IMG/VR virus record: IMGVR_UViG_3300027708_000022
Span: 1 to 64,000 of that record
Length of the DNA: 64,000 bases
From: a virus
Strand: one strand, 5' to 3'
The notes below the pieces were generated by a model, which did not search any database, had not been told where the DNA came from, and worked only from the letters and a program-made list of their open reading frames with translations. This document shows positions 2,496 to 7,331 of the stretch, piece after piece (position 1 is the stretch's first letter; each line of letters begins with the position of its first letter). Both the position numbers and the translations under genes were made by a program.

Positions 2496-3053
2496 TTAAA
2501 TTTCTGGTAGTTCTTTCACATCCAATTCAATAAAGTTTTCAATACCTTTAATCTTTACTTTCTTTTTATTCTTTTTAGTTTCTTCAAATGTATGAATGAA
2601 TTCTGATATGTTATCATACATTTTAAATTGTTGCATATGCCCATTCTCATCTTCAAACATTTCACCTTCATCTAATAAACCAAACTGTTCTGTTGCTTTG
2701 TATTTTACATATAGTTGTTTCTTCTCTTTGGCAATTCTTCGTAGAAATGCAAAGTAAATAATCTGTGTAAAATAGGCAAATGGATTAGATGATTTGGCAG
2801 GATCAAAGTTTCTGAAATACATTATACAATTTTCAATACCATCTGCAATCATTTCATCTCTAAATGAATATGATACGAAGTTTGGTTTTCTAGATAGATG
2901 TTCTGCAATTTTAATAAAACATTCACCGATATAGTTTGGTACTATAGGTTCTGGTTTATCATTTTTTTTGGCTTCAACACACTTTTCGGTATAATCGGTT
3001 AGTGCTTTTAAGAAGTCGGCATTGTTAATGTAATGTGCTTTTTTCTTACTCAT
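2496..3053 (-). CDS. 55: gp55 late-transcription sigma factor
   Basis: Phage sigma factor that directs host RNA polymerase to TATAAATA-type late promoters, usually working with the sliding clamp gp45 and coactivator gp33. Its 185 residues match the T4 gp55 length. Recognised by conserved blocks: an N-terminal HYINNADFLKAL stretch, then RDEMIADGIENCI, a NFD motif and a NPFAYFTQIIYFAFLRRI block, which correspond in order to T4 gp55 segments resembling sigma region 2. The C-terminus is lysine-rich and ends in an acidic hydrophobic tail (FIELDVKELPEI), as expected for the clamp-binding end. Several perfect late promoter motifs occur elsewhere in the window, consistent with this role. Confidence 0.9.
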   Translation of the reverse strand: MSKKKAHYINNADFLKALTDYTEKCVEAKKNDKPEPIVPNYIGECFIKIAEHLSRKPNFVSYSFRDEMIADGIENCIMYFRNFDPAKSSNPFAYFTQIIYFAFLRRIAKEKKQLYVKYKATEQFGLLDEGEMFEDENGHMQQFKMYDNISEFIHTFEETKKNKKKVKIKGIENFIELDVKELPEI

Positions 3054-3074: not shown

Positions 3075-3103
3075 TTGACAGGTTAGTGATACATTGTTAT
3101 AAT
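3075..3103 (+). promoter_or_regulatory. Perfect consensus sigma-70 promoter, plus strand (antisense)
   Basis: TTGACA at 3075-3080, a 17-base spacer, then TATAAT at 3098-3103: the ideal host housekeeping promoter. It sits between the minus-strand genes for gp55 and the Sm-like protein and points away from gp55, so RNA starting near 3110 would run antisense through 3118-3549 and on towards the homing endonuclease at 3646. Confidence 0.75.
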
Positions 3104-3117
3104 GGTTTTGTCGTTCT

Positions 3118-3549
3118 TTAATGTAATATTCTTTTCTTATTACTTAATACTTCTTTAATGGTTTCAATACTATCTACATACTCTGAGAACTCTTCTTCTG
3201 AAACATCTTCTTCATCACCATCTTCGTTTAATGATTGTTCAATGTGGTCTGACTCTTCAATGATACATTCATTCAAATCAATCACTGCCTTATTATAATA
3301 ATTAACAAGAGATTCTTTAGGTTGAAATACAGTTAATACGTCTTGTGAATAAACTGTAGCCATATTATATTGAATAATCTCTACAGGTAACCAAGGTACC
3401 ATCATCATAACTGATTTACCAGTAATCTGTCTTTTAAATAATACTGTCATAGGATTGTTAAGTGTAACGATACCTTCTTCTTTATCTTCTATCATAGAAG
3501 CAATGATATCTTCACCCGATTGCATCCTTATTATTTTTATGTTATCCAT
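3118..3549 (-). CDS. Conserved phage protein with Sm-like N-terminus and acidic C-terminus
   Basis: A 143-residue protein with no assigned function. The N-terminal 80 residues (IKIIRMQSGEDIIASM..., then a TLNNPMTVLFK strand and a MMMVPWLPV strand) have the spacing of a small Sm/LSm-like beta barrel; similar proteins are common in T4-like phages of aquatic bacteria. Residues about 98-130 are strongly acidic (EESDHIEQSLNEDGDEEDV), followed by a short basic end. It sits just upstream of gp55 in the same direction, so a role in late transcription or RNA binding is possible but only inferred. A consensus promoter at its 3' end points antisense through it. Confidence 0.6.
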   Translation of the reverse strand: MDNIKIIRMQSGEDIIASMIEDKEEGIVTLNNPMTVLFKRQITGKSVMMMVPWLPVEIIQYNMATVYSQDVLTVFQPKESLVNYYNKAVIDLNECIIEESDHIEQSLNEDGDEEDVSEEEFSEYVDSIETIKEVLSNKKRILH

Positions 3550-3579
3550 GTCAAAAATACCCTTTTAGGTAAAAAAAAT

Positions 3580-3587
3580 TATAAATA
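3580..3587 (+). promoter_or_regulatory. T4-type late promoter TATAAATA for the GIY-YIG gene
   Basis: Exact TATAAATA on the plus strand. By T4 rules transcription would start about 6 bases downstream (near 3593), giving a leader of about 50 bases before ATG 3646. It lies in the short gap upstream of the Sm-like gene and serves only the plus-strand endonuclease. Confidence 0.7.
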
Positions 3588-3621
3588 AGTGTAGATCGCC
3601 GAGTTGCAGCTCGCACCTACT

Positions 3622-3644
3622 CTAATACGAAAGGACCGTATCAG
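3622..3644 (+). promoter_or_regulatory. RNA hairpin presenting the ribosome-binding site in its loop
   Basis: Stem CT.ATACG (3622-3629) pairs with CGTAT.AG (3637-3644) with one A-C mismatch. The 7-base loop AAAGGAC contains the Shine-Dalgarno sequence, and the start codon follows immediately at 3646. T4 late homing endonuclease genes are known to use hairpins around their ribosome-binding sites, so translational control is plausible. Confidence 0.45.
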
Positions 3645-3645
3645 T

Positions 3646-4146
3646 ATGACTATTTATTCTTCTAAAAACAGACCTAATCATTTTTATGTATATGCTTATC
3701 TAAGAGATAATAATTTACCTTATTATATAGGTAAAGGTTGCAGAGATAGAGCATGGAACAAAAATCATTCAATAAACATACCTAATGATAACACAAAAAT
3801 AATAATAATGCAAGCTAATTTAACGGAAATTGGAGCATTTGCCATAGAAAGAAGAATGATTCAATGGTATGGAAGAATTGATAATGGTACAGGTATACTT
3901 AGAAATTTAACTGATGGTGGTGATGGAACATCCGGTTATAAACAATCAGAAATACACATACAAAAACGAAAAAAAGCTAGACTTTTAAGTGGATATAATC
4001 ATACACCAGAATCTAAAAATAAATTATCAATTAATAAAACAGGTAAACTTAGACCAGATCATAGTCAAAAAATGAAACAGTATTGGGATAAAAAAACAAA
4101 AGAAGAAAAATTACAACATTCCAAAAAAACTTTTAATAAAAATTAA
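3646..4146 (+). CDS. GIY-YIG homing endonuclease (Seg-like) with NUMOD3-type tail
   Basis: A 166-residue free-standing homing endonuclease, the only plus-strand gene in the first 56 kb. Seen: FYVYAYLR and YYIGKG form the GIY-YIG core near residues 12-30, with downstream basic residues and the catalytic-type glutamate in FAIERRMI. The C-terminus carries repeated NUMOD3-like DNA-binding segments (KQSEIHIQKRKKAR, TPESKNKLSINKTGK). ATG 3646 is preferred over an upstream TTG at 3604 because it follows the AAAGGA site and the protein begins just before the catalytic fold. Its stop overlaps the stop of the convergent uvsW 3' part by two bases, so it abuts that gene exactly. Mobile, probably non-essential. 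Confidence 0.88.
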   Translation: MTIYSSKNRPNHFYVYAYLRDNNLPYYIGKGCRDRAWNKNHSINIPNDNTKIIIMQANLTEIGAFAIERRMIQWYGRIDNGTGILRNLTDGGDGTSGYKQSEIHIQKRKKARLLSGYNHTPESKNKLSINKTGKLRPDHSQKMKQYWDKKTKEEKLQHSKKTFNKN

Positions 4147-4838
4147 ATTTTTAATTCTATATTATAAAACTTATAATTAAATTTTTCATCGTCATACATC
4201 TTTACTCTGCCAACGAAGTGTGTCAAGGTATAATTAACATGTTTGCCTATTCTAAAATCATCAGAGATATCATAAAGAACCGCTTCTTCTTTATTATCAC
4301 CTAATCTAAGTCCACGACCAATTGATTGTAGATTACGAATTTTTGATTTAGATGGTGATGCAAATATTACATTATGTAAATTACGTATATTAATACCAGT
4401 TGAGAATGTACCGTATGAAGCAACAATAATGGCATCTGTTTCACGTTCAGTTATATCTCTAATAGATTCTCTAACTTCGGTATCAGTACCACCATATACA
4501 AAAAATACTTTACGTTTACCTGCTTCTTCTTTTATAATATTATGTAGAACTTTACCATGTTTATCTACAAATTGAAATAGTATTAATGAATTACCTTTCA
4601 ACGACAAGGCAAGATTCTTTATAAATGCATTTCTTGCTGTGTTCAATACTATATATTCAATCTCTTCTTTGTAGTCCCACTTCTTAGATAACTTACAAAC
4701 TTCTTCTGGATATTTAAGTATTAAACATTTAATCTTAAATTTAGATAACTGTTTGTTATCCATTAATTCTTTTGTTGTTGTTGCTTTATATACTGGTCCA
4801 AATAAACCTTCTAATACTAATCTATGAACATTACTCAT
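4143..4838 (-). CDS. uvsW: UvsW helicase, C-terminal part (RecA domain 2) of a split gene
   Basis: Second half of the T4 UvsW superfamily-2 helicase, which remodels recombination and replication intermediates. After the initiating Met the protein reads SNVHRLVLEGLFGPVYK, which is the UvsW sequence that should directly follow the TGTLAN end of the N-terminal part at 5529-6302. Motifs of the second RecA-like domain are present: a strand with SLILFQFVD (motif IV region), ASYGTFSTGINI (motif V) and QSIGRGLR (motif VI arginine finger). The start ATG overlaps the 3' end of the HNH gene by 8 bases, suggesting coupled translation. The two parts total about 487 residues, close to intact T4 UvsW, so they may assemble in trans. 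Confidence 0.9.
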   Translation of the reverse strand: MSNVHRLVLEGLFGPVYKATTTKELMDNKQLSKFKIKCLILKYPEEVCKLSKKWDYKEEIEYIVLNTARNAFIKNLALSLKGNSLILFQFVDKHGKVLHNIIKEEAGKRKVFFVYGGTDTEVRESIRDITERETDAIIVASYGTFSTGINIRNLHNVIFASPSKSKIRNLQSIGRGLRLGDNKEEAVLYDISDDFRIGKHVNYTLTHFVGRVKMYDDEKFNYKFYNIELKI

Positions 4839-5493
4839 TTTTTTCCATAATATTTTTTAACATTTGTTGTCGTCTTTTTTCTATCAATAATAAAGATTTT
4901 TCTTTACCTAAAAGTTCTTCGTATGTTTTGCCTCTTGACCAATCACCAATTTTTTTCTTAGATTCTTCTGTGTGTGGATATCTGCCACTATATGTTAATT
5001 GTTCAAAGGATATTTTTCCATCAATAAAAGAATACAACCTTCTTTTTGTTGTTTGTAATTTTTCCCAAGCTTCTTTTCTACTTTTATACTTTATTCCATT
5101 TATTTCTATTTCTTTAGCATTTGGATTATTTTCTGACATTCTTTTCATTTCTTTATCAGAAAGAGTTTTACCTTTATGGTGTAAACTTGCTGATAAAGAG
5201 TGTGCTTTTCTAGCTATTTCATAACCAATTGAAGTGTAGTACCTATTAGTAGAATCATGGTATCTCATCATGCCAAAAGCATGACCCATTTTAATTTTAT
5301 CTTTTCCTTTTGAGAATTTCCATAATAACCAATGACACACAAAGTGTTCTCTTGCTGTCAATTTTACTTTATTTTTTTTACCATTGTCACCACCTAAAGA
5401 TTTAGGTATTATATGGTGCTCCTCAAAATACTCGGACATTGTCCGAGTATTAGCTTTTTCTATTATAGAGTAATATATTTTTTGATAGTCCAT
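4831..5493 (-). CDS. HNH homing endonuclease inserted in uvsW
   Basis: A 220-residue free-standing HNH endonuclease. Seen: EEHHIIPKSLGGDN (first histidines of the HNH fold, residues about 24-37), KLTAREHFVCHWLL (asparagine/histidine side), and a C-terminal DNA-binding region with KSRKEAWEKLQ (NUMOD1-like) and HTEESKKKIGDWSRG (NUMOD3-like). It occupies nearly all of the 696 bases separating the two uvsW parts. Only about 35 bases precede it and it overlaps the downstream part, so there is no room for a group I intron. No Shine-Dalgarno sequence lies close to ATG 5493, but a late-promoter-like CATAAATA ends 5 bases before it. Expected function: cut intact uvsW alleles to spread itself. Confidence 0.88.
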   Translation of the reverse strand: MDYQKIYYSIIEKANTRTMSEYFEEHHIIPKSLGGDNGKKNKVKLTAREHFVCHWLLWKFSKGKDKIKMGHAFGMMRYHDSTNRYYTSIGYEIARKAHSLSASLHHKGKTLSDKEMKRMSENNPNAKEIEINGIKYKSRKEAWEKLQTTKRRLYSFIDGKISFEQLTYSGRYPHTEESKKKIGDWSRGKTYEELLGKEKSLLLIEKRRQQMLKNIMEKNE

Positions 5494-5531
5494 ATTTCTA
5501 TTTATGCGTTTTAGTTCCTTCTAATAGGTTA
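4836..5531 (-). mobile_element. Intron-less homing insertion in uvsW
   Basis: The block from the TAA that ends the N-terminal uvsW part to the ATG that begins the C-terminal part is 696 bases. Removing it joins ...TGTLAN to SNVHRLVL..., restoring a continuous UvsW reading with no lost residues when compared with the T4 pattern TLDGSKVNELTV. It supplies a stop for the first half, the HNH gene, and a start for the second half. Confidence 0.8.
5499..5506 (-). promoter_or_regulatory. Late-promoter-like CATAAATA directly before the HNH gene
   Basis: CATAAATA on the minus strand ends 5 bases before ATG 5493. With T4 spacing the transcript would begin at the A of the start codon, giving a leaderless message; see the finding on leaderless starts. 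Confidence 0.4.
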
Positions 5532-6302
5532 ATTAGCTAATGTTCCGGTGCAACCTATTCTATATTTTGCATTAACCAATTGTGTCATAATTGTTGCTAG
5601 TGATTTGGCTTTGAATTGATGTGCCTCATCACCTATAACAAAATCAAATTGTTCAAAATATTCTGGTGGTTGTTTGTATATACTCTGCCAAGTCGATATT
5701 GATAGGAATTTATCTGAGTGTTTATCTCGACCAGCATATATTATATGACAGTTTGTTTTTGAGTCATAACCATAAGATTCAAAATCTGTGAACATCTGAT
5801 TACAAAGTGAAGTGGTTGGGACAATAAGTAACCCTTTTTTATAACCAGCATCTTGTATTCGTCTAAGTATCAAATAAATGATTAAAGATTTACCTGATGC
5901 AGTAGGTGAAAGAAGTAGAATTCTTTTATTACGGATTGCATGAACAAAAGAACTAACTTGATAATCACGAGGTTCAAATGGCAAACCAAGTGTCTGTATA
6001 AAGTCGTTGGCTTCTTTTAAGGAGTAATTGTCCGTGACTGTTATCTCAGAATCAATCTCAATTTTGTAATCTCTTTCTTTACAAAACTTTTCAATATAAG
6101 GTACCAAGCCATGGTATATTTCCATGGTTCTTAAATCAAGCAACCTTATCTTACCATCCCAATATCTTGCCTTAAATGCAGGAGTATATTGGTAGCCAGG
6201 AACATAGAAACAAAAATAATCGGAAAGTTCTTGTGCTACATTTCTTTCTGATACTACTCTGATAAAGGCTTCGTTAACCTTTTCTAATCTTAAATCATAC
6301 AC
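5529..6302 (-). CDS. uvsW: UvsW helicase, N-terminal part (RecA domain 1) of a split gene
   Basis: First half of the UvsW recombination helicase, 257 residues. Seen: an N-terminal substrate-recognition domain (about residues 1-105, YTPAFKARYWDGKIRLLD), a Q-motif-like RDYQ, Walker A SPTASGKS (near 131-138), a Walker B DEAH box GDEAHQ (near 225-230) and motif III GCTGT at the end. It terminates two residues after TGTLAN with TAA, exactly at the linker between the two RecA-like domains. Both the ATPase site and the motif V/VI half survive, but on separate polypeptides. The 5' end overlaps uvsY by 8 bases. Confidence 0.9.
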   Translation of the reverse strand: MYDLRLEKVNEAFIRVVSERNVAQELSDYFCFYVPGYQYTPAFKARYWDGKIRLLDLRTMEIYHGLVPYIEKFCKERDYKIEIDSEITVTDNYSLKEANDFIQTLGLPFEPRDYQVSSFVHAIRNKRILLLSPTASGKSLIIYLILRRIQDAGYKKGLLIVPTTSLCNQMFTDFESYGYDSKTNCHIIYAGRDKHSDKFLSISTWQSIYKQPPEYFEQFDFVIGDEAHQFKAKSLATIMTQLVNAKYRIGCTGTLAN

Positions 6303-6729
6303 CCTGTATAAACCTTTCCCATGTTATAAATTCTTTCAATTGAAATGTTCGTGAATGCAATTCTTTAAGAATACTTTGGCATACATCAACAATTTCTTCA
6401 TGTAAAATTTTGTTAGCCAAGTATTTGTTTAAATCTTCATCACTCTCAAAGTATGTAGTGATCTCGGATTTGAGTACAAAAGGAAATGGTTCCCAACCAT
6501 AGTGTTTAAGTTGGTCATCATCTAATTTACCTGTATAGTATTCCCACTTCAGTCGTTTCATTTTGTTATACTTAAACTCAGACTCTCTCACCAATAGTCG
6601 GTGACGAGAAAGTATATTCAAATACTTACTATGTAGTTGTGGTATGTTTGTTAGTTCTTTGCCTGGCTCAGTTCTATCAATAACAGAATCTTTTGCCCAC
6701 ATAGCTAATAGTTCATCAAGTTTGTTCAT
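6295..6729 (-). CDS. uvsY: UvsY recombination mediator
   Basis: Loads the UvsX recombinase onto gp32-coated single-stranded DNA. Its 144 residues match T4 UvsY (137). Recognisable pattern: an N-terminal LDELLAMWAKDSVIDRTEPGKEL typical of aquatic T4-like UvsY, a helical core KYLNILSRHRLLVRESEFKYNKMKRLKWEYYTG corresponding to the T4 KWLNKHS...ARLDYYSG region, and a C-terminal LHSRTFQLKEFITWERF like the T4 IKSRSFALKHIQDMRAF end. A strong AGGAGG ribosome-binding site sits 7 bases before the ATG. It overlaps the downstream uvsW by 8 bases. Confidence 0.88.
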   Translation of the reverse strand: MNKLDELLAMWAKDSVIDRTEPGKELTNIPQLHSKYLNILSRHRLLVRESEFKYNKMKRLKWEYYTGKLDDDQLKHYGWEPFPFVLKSEITTYFESDEDLNKYLANKILHEEIVDVCQSILKELHSRTFQLKEFITWERFIQGV

Positions 6730-6760
6730 TATAAATCCTCCTGTTAGGAGTATACACTAA

Positions 6761-7300
6761 TTATGTAGCTCTGTCAACATCAAAATAGGAATATCTGAAT
6801 GTGGCATCGGCAGTAATGATGGAATCTGGTGTGTCTGAGGCAGAAACCACAAATGTAGATACCGATGTTGGAAACATATCGTAGAAAGTGAATGTGTGTA
6901 ATGGATTGTTTGCTGATGATAAAAGTGTAATCTTAGCATCAGAAAATTGTGGCATTAAATCACCACGAGCATTTGCATTTGAATTCAATAAACTAAGTTT
7001 TTTATATTCGTCAAAACTGGTTACTTTAGTCATAGCACGAATCCAATCGTGAATTTCTAACCAAGACTTTAACTCTTCATCTACCAAAAAGGTAATATTC
7101 AAAATATCATATATGGCCTTTTCACCGGGTGAATATAAATCAACCAATGGTGTATTACGAACAATTTCACCTAATGAAATGCCAGGAATAGTTATAGACT
7201 GACAAAAATATTGTAGATTAGGTACACGACTAAAGTTTAACTGAAACTTATTAGGGTGTAAGTAATTTGGATTGGATGGATTTCTTGTGAATGCACTCAT
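6761..7300 (-). CDS. Tail-tube-fold structural protein, likely gp3-like tail completion protein
   Basis: A 179-residue protein of the T4 tail-tube-like fold. The N-terminus FQLNFSRVPNLQYFCQSITIPGISLGE and the following alternating strands resemble the gp19 tube family. In aquatic T4-like phages the gene between gp23 and uvsY is usually annotated as gp3, the tail completion/sheath-stabilising protein, which fits this position; the gp3 call rests mainly on synteny. The frame stays open to 7348, but ATG 7300 (MSAFTRNPSN) is chosen because a late promoter at 7324-7331 and the gp23 terminator lie inside the longer version. The ribosome-binding site is weak (GTGAGA). Confidence 0.6.
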   Translation of the reverse strand: MSAFTRNPSNPNYLHPNKFQLNFSRVPNLQYFCQSITIPGISLGEIVRNTPLVDLYSPGEKAIYDILNITFLVDEELKSWLEIHDWIRAMTKVTSFDEYKKLSLLNSNANARGDLMPQFSDAKITLLSSANNPLHTFTFYDMFPTSVSTFVVSASDTPDSIITADATFRYSYFDVDRAT

Positions 7301-7323: not shown

Positions 7324-7331
7324 TATTTATA
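7324..7331 (-). promoter_or_regulatory. T4-type late promoter TATAAATA for the gp3-like gene
   Basis: Exact TATAAATA followed by CC on the minus strand, 23 bases before ATG 7300. It lies just past the gp23 terminator, so transcription is re-started here for the gp3-like, uvsY and uvsW genes. Confidence 0.75.

Follow-up and report, generated by a model that had tools for sequence, protein, structure and literature searches.

A conserved early-type promoter predicted to read antisense from the upstream border of the late sigma factor gene gp55 in T4-like cyanophages and their environmental relatives

A predicted early, host-sigma-type promoter lies immediately upstream of gp55, the gene for the late sigma factor, and points away from it, against all of the surrounding genes. 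In the window, the whole stretch of DNA analysed here (bases 1-64000 of a 162,042-base virus record), the promoter is TTGACA-N17-TATAAT at 3075-3103 on the plus strand, with exact hexamers and an extended -10 (TGn), and as a sequence feature it is near certain. Judged by sequence comparison, its location is retained throughout a very broad set of T4-like cyanophages and environmental relatives; what is conserved comprises the promoter itself, its position and the first few bases of its transcript. There is about an even chance, in our estimate, that this early antisense promoter would interfere with late-mode read-through into gp55. Early transcription backwards into late genes is probably a part of life-cycle timing in these phages.

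The site is surrounded by a block of T4-like genes encoded on the minus strand. The promoter occupies the 64-bp gap between gp55 (2496..3053; phrog_234, E 2.8e-60) and an Sm-like gene (3118..3549; DUF6561, the 'methylamine utilization' T4-GC 139 position, supported also by synteny), which the antisense transcript would cross first. On the other side of gp55 are a nucleotidyltransferase gene (2033-2485), gp47 (985-2064) and gp46 (<985). The last two were assigned by position and synteny, as were a uvsY-like gene (6295-6729) and, farther along the block, a gp3-like gene and gp23. An ORF for an HNH homing endonuclease (4831-5493) interrupts uvsW (4143-6302), which is left as two minus-strand ORFs (5529-6302 and 4143-4838); no intron family was detected at the split gene, and the arrangement is similar to that of mobE and the split nrdA in phage Aeh1. 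Two signals on the minus strand read in the direction of the block, namely a sense promoter-like site, TTGACA-N17-TATACT (6749..6777), upstream of the uvsY-like and uvsW genes, and a late promoter motif, TATAAATA (7324..7331), upstream of the gp3-like gene and reading toward uvsW, the Sm-like gene and gp55.

The plus-strand promoter consists of a -35 element TTGACA (3075..3080), a 17-bp spacer ending in TGT (3081..3097), a -10 element TATAAT (3098..3103) and a start-site element GGTTT-TGT-CGT (3104..3114). The exact match with ideal spacing described in the initial annotation is confirmed, as is its statement that the fit is confined to the plus strand: on the minus strand no candidate there scores above 9/12. 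The predicted transcription start is G3110 (T at -1, G at +1), in agreement with the earlier placement near 3110. The predicted transcript runs over the Sm-like gene (3110..3549), with an undefined 3' end. It was also correctly noted that roughly 500 bases downstream are all coded on the opposite strand: 3118-3549 is a minus-strand ORF, and the plus-strand GIY-YIG ORF begins at 3646. The site is the only exact 17-spaced TTGACA/TATAAT match in the 64-kb window, and dinucleotide shuffles of the window gave a mean of 0.05 exact matches, with at least one in 4.7% of them. Taken alone, the exact match could thus still have arisen by chance and is suggestive, hardly decisive. Its significance comes from its conservation in 122 of 142 relative clusters and from its likeness to the other early promoters of the phage.

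Relatives of the Sm-like gene and gp55 were taken from IMG/VR and from isolates. The 317 gp55 loci obtained, mostly on metagenomic contigs, were grouped by the 8-mer content of the 150 bp upstream into 142 clusters, which do not represent phylogenetically independent events. An antisense TTGACA-N17-TAnnnT was found upstream of gp55 in 122 of the 142 non-redundant clusters, with the -35 element at the 17-bp spacing in each, and the antisense hexamers occur at any other spacing from 8 to 29 in at most 5. Dinucleotide shuffles yielded a mean of 0.25 clusters with a site (maximum 2), and control 200-bp antisense windows from the same loci contained it in 7 of 3190 cases. It should be mentioned that the -35 and TA...T positions are set by the search pattern, so that the evidence lies in the spacing, the inner -10 bases and a TGT found outside the selection pattern, exactly 5 nt past the -10, in 104 of the 122 site-bearing clusters. 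The TGT fits initiation at T(-1)G(+1), which is G3110 in the window phage. The spacer is fixed in length and diverges in sequence, above all in the clade of the window phage, where it averages 0.22 bits of information per position.

Among the clusters with the Sm-like gene next to gp55, 114 of 123 contain the site. Most of the other loci still have TAnnnT-N5-TGT, preceded by a -35 element that has shifted or degenerated. At some loci that carry a gene inserted before gp55, the site adjoins the Sm-like gene, 460-490 bp from gp55, and the linkage of the promoter to gp55 is tight, not absolute. Isolates with the site include Syn9, S-PM2, Syn1, S-CAM7, S-CAM9, P-SSM3 and DSL-LC03; in P-HM2 it is present too, its start element differing at one base. 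The antisense start is predicted at G123698 in Syn9 (NC_008296), near 84439 in S-PM2 (NC_006820) and near 120709 in P-HM2 (NC_015284), on the minus strand in all three. A comparable antisense promoter is absent in T4-type phage ime09, Vibrio phage PG216, phiM9 and an Acinetobacter phage, in which the upstream gene differs. One sub-clade of eight members carries a second CTTGACA 12 bp past the first, a direct repeat within the spacer, and in four related members (L080, L036, L025 and L165) the second copy alone is left.

The site also resembles the other early promoters of its own genome. Scanning of the rest of the genome revealed an early-promoter family located at 67.7 to 97 kb and nearly entirely on the minus strand, with the pattern C-TTGAC[A/T]-N16-TATAATGG[A/T]NCCTGTTGA and with variants TATAATGGACGGTGTCGTTCC at 94285 and TATAATGGTAGGTGTCGAAGG at 97131 (+). 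The 3075 site, which continues TATAATGGTTTTGTCGTTC, has both hexamers and the start-site element in common with the family, and in its TATAATGG...TGTYG start element it is the same as the genome's other early promoters. Matches to TTGAC[AT]-N16/17-TATAAT in the whole genome number 16 on the minus strand versus 2 on the plus strand, the latter at 3075 and 97131. The early promoters at 67700-97131 (L168, L169) show 16-bp spacing, a spacer end GGTTCGTG/GGTTAGTG common to the family and a common start element GG[AT]NCCTGTTGA; they possibly share a regulator or an initiation signal.

Sigma-70-type early promoters of T4-like cyanophages are of the same kind, with consensus hexamers, 17-bp spacing and expected use by host RNA polymerase. 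The 3075-type site differs from typical ones in that it opposes all surrounding genes and is nearly alone of its early type on its strand. The same extended promoter stands in front of ordinary clusters of early genes in S-PM2 (162737) and Syn1 (16507), which confirms the early-promoter class of the antisense site; in Syn1 the gp55 site is the sole reverse-strand match in 191 kb. By its conservation and its likeness to the phage's other early promoters, the proposal of an early promoter antisense to the Sm-like gene is strongly supported at the level of sequence. Several sense early promoters, at S-PM2 162737, Syn1 16507, S-CAM9 141744 and 170633 and Syn9 52741, carry a long AACTCTG..AGGGTT inverted repeat at the start site, and these look like a small regulon with an operator-like dyad. 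A further antisense early-type promoter with the same start element is found in S-CAM7 (NC_031927, 64120-64077, minus strand) upstream of a tail fibre gene. Synechococcus phage MC09 (PP110486) has several TTGACACTACAAGTGTAACA-like repeats (73-113, 173067-173107, 41429 and 148441), including one identical 41-bp repeat pair near both ends of the record.

Many cyanophages have a sigma-70-type sense promoter for gp55 back-to-back with the antisense one, the -35 elements of the two overlapping or abutting. Such an architecture could leave the antisense promoter as a functionless by-product of a divergent or symmetric gp55 sense promoter. We regard this as improbable. The sense promoter at 17-bp spacing is present in 47 of 142 clusters and mostly missing in the window's clade, where the antisense site persists; across all clusters it is the antisense site that is retained more often (122/142 vs 47/142). 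The conservation of its start element as well speaks against a by-product.

The position of the site coincides with a border between gene modules. In S-PM2 the junction between the virion block, which ends in gp23-gp3-uvsY-uvsW-Sm-like, and the replication block, gp55-47-46-45-44-62-regA-43, coincides exactly with the promoter, which is directed into the virion (late) block. In the 2.95 kb preceding gp55, a late motif, NATAAATA, has sense-strand matches in 86 of 103 loci and an antisense match in 1. Most of the sense matches are located about 900 bp upstream of gp55, within uvsW, for example at 122848 in Syn9 and at 119916 in P-HM2. The uvsW-embedded motif is present in all 90 of the 90 cyanophage clusters (57/57 Syn1-like and 33/33 P-SSM3-like). 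It coincides with the codons for L/M-I-N-[N/S]; the GINI codons, considered as the seat of the motif, were rejected. The Ile-Asn pair is encoded by ATA AAT in 80 of 80 sequences, although ATA makes up 24% of the Ile codons in the gene, and ATA is the most codon-constrained of the 198 uvsW columns tested, with the adjacent AAT second. Because of this invariant codon pair at the most constrained column of the gene, there is good evidence, from sequence, for a putative gp55-dependent promoter hidden in uvsW that would read the Sm-like gene and gp55 in cyanophages. In the window's clade the embedded late motif is not conserved, being found in just 12 of 47, and in the window genome the nearest exact late motif is the one ending at 7331 (minus strand). 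The face-to-face pair of predicted early and late promoters is thus seen in the cyanophages only.

From the promoter, its start element, position and conservation, together with the opposing late motifs of the cyanophages, we infer an activity, a timing and an effect on gp55 as follows. The promoter at 3075-3103 (+) would be an early promoter at the border of the late (virion) and replication blocks, firing backwards into the late block over the Sm-like gene, uvsW and beyond. Early in infection, polymerases starting near 3110 would collide with or block polymerases coming toward gp55, and in cyanophages the antisense promoter would also compete with the adjacent sense gp55 promoter. Read-through of gp55 that itself depends on gp55, an autocatalytic loop, would in this way be held back as long as host-sigma transcription lasts. 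Once the late programme takes over, the opposition would fade and late read-through could amplify gp55. Base-pairing of the antisense RNA with the Sm-like/uvsW message may reinforce the effect. Collision and occlusion are generally established as ways in which transcription interferes (PMC6593788, PMC4731013), and the cyanophage site is like the known convergent-promoter switches in having opposing promoters of two temporal classes, here about 0.85 kb apart. Unlike in those switches, one of the two promoters would be activated by a sigma factor whose gene is itself among those opposed.

The initial annotation had suggested that an antisense RNA could delay the expression of its neighbour. Such a delay is plausible, although the conserved position suggests that gp55 and late read-through would be regulated rather than the Sm-like gene. 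A related possibility is that the product itself matters, a long cis-antisense RNA pairing with the Sm-like/uvsW mRNA and altering its translation or stability, either by repression or by shielding from RNase E. We consider this rather unlikely, though the likeliest of the alternatives. Complementarity to the Sm-like and uvsW messages would be perfect, and an antisense RNA acting in cis can do so without its own sequence being conserved. A T4-like cyanophage is known to produce antisense RNA (CfrI, PMC2984593), and shielding of phage mRNA by antisense transcription has been discussed for cyanophages (PMC10976474). CfrI of S-PM2, at psbA/F-CphI, is similar to the gp55 site in being antisense transcription near a homing endonuclease gene in a T4-like cyanophage (PMC2984593); it differs as an RNA of about 225 nt at psbA, whereas the gp55-Sm-like-uvsW site is conserved with or without an endonuclease and its transcript has no defined 3' end. 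The lack of a defined 3' end counts against a role of the RNA by pairing, as do the clusters with a gene inserted between the Sm-like gene and gp55, some of which keep the promoter next to gp55, where it would run into another gene (L028, L056, L088, L047, L062 and L067). It is noted that the conserved position alone cannot tell interference from antisense-RNA action. Other searches addressed the transcript itself. Terminator-like hairpins occur in the first 600 nt of the antisense transcript in 12 of 116 cases, compared with 8 in shuffles, and no Rfam match was found for it; with no consistent terminator and no Rfam match, a defined antisense sRNA was not supported. No antisense ORF is shared, since those of at least 30 aa starting near the transcription start site have no common start and just 9 of 72 have an RBS-like sequence, and an antisense peptide was rejected on these grounds. 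Excess synonymous constraint was not found in the Sm-like gene, and a conserved RNA sequence over that gene was likewise rejected. That no terminator, ORF or synonymous constraint points to a defined sRNA or peptide counts in favour of interference.

The GIY-YIG homing endonuclease gene (3646..4146, plus strand) lies between uvsW and the Sm-like gene and is missing from most relatives. In the window phage its insertion parts the uvsW stop from the Sm-like start; in relatives that lack it and have uvsW covered, the uvsW stop and the Sm-like start overlap by 8 nt. The plus transcript from 3110 would reach 3646 in the window phage without an intervening terminator, and it had been proposed that the promoter gives the endonuclease early expression. 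However, relatives lacking the gene (L013-L021, L022, L033-L040 and L043) have the promoter as well. This conservation in relatives without the endonuclease, which the initial annotation had named as a check, shows that the promoter is not primarily a leader for GIY-YIG. The endonuclease gene also has a T4-type late promoter motif of its own, TATAAATA (3580..3587, plus strand, 1 of only 4 on that strand in 162 kb), and its RBS lies in the loop of a predicted hairpin, ATACG-AAAGGAC-CGTAT (3625..3641, plus strand). The same combination of own late promoter and RBS in a hairpin is present in I-TevI, SegB and MobE, for which late-only control of endonuclease expression has been described (PMC2988022). 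The hairpin here is also inside the late transcript, so that the I-TevI logic may not hold exactly, and the comparison covers the downstream endonuclease only. A main function as an early endonuclease leader is largely refuted, and we give it hardly any weight.

The site is a predicted strong promoter of host type, next to uvsW, which encodes an R-loop helicase, and at the start of the replication module. By analogy with T4 ori(uvsY), a transcription-primed (R-loop) replication origin, it could also serve as an origin. We find a similar role of the present site improbable: the sign of the GC skew is unchanged at the site in both the window genome and S-PM2, although GC skew is a weak origin test for circularly permuted, recombination-replicating phages, and there is no downstream AT-rich dip above background.

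Neither an antisense promoter at gp55 nor a uvsW-embedded late promoter was found described in the literature consulted, though a prior mention in the Syn9 transcriptome study is possible. An earlier cyanophage promoter scan kept intergenic sites only (PMC3037559) and would therefore have missed a late promoter embedded in uvsW. How T4-like cyanophages time middle and late expression without motA/asiA is an open question (PMC2984593). We tentatively suggest, as a possible though less than even prospect, that Kyanoviridae and related T4-like phages may have a conserved timing switch at the late/replication boundary, in which an antisense early promoter would oppose gp55-dependent amplification of gp55 and allow a sharp early-to-late transition without a MotA/AsiA-type middle system. 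In cyanophages the opposed amplification would start at the late promoter hidden in the uvsW coding sequence. A promoter this conserved, directed against all surrounding genes at a late-sigma gene, provides a concrete and directly testable control point in phages that are among the most abundant viruses of the ocean.
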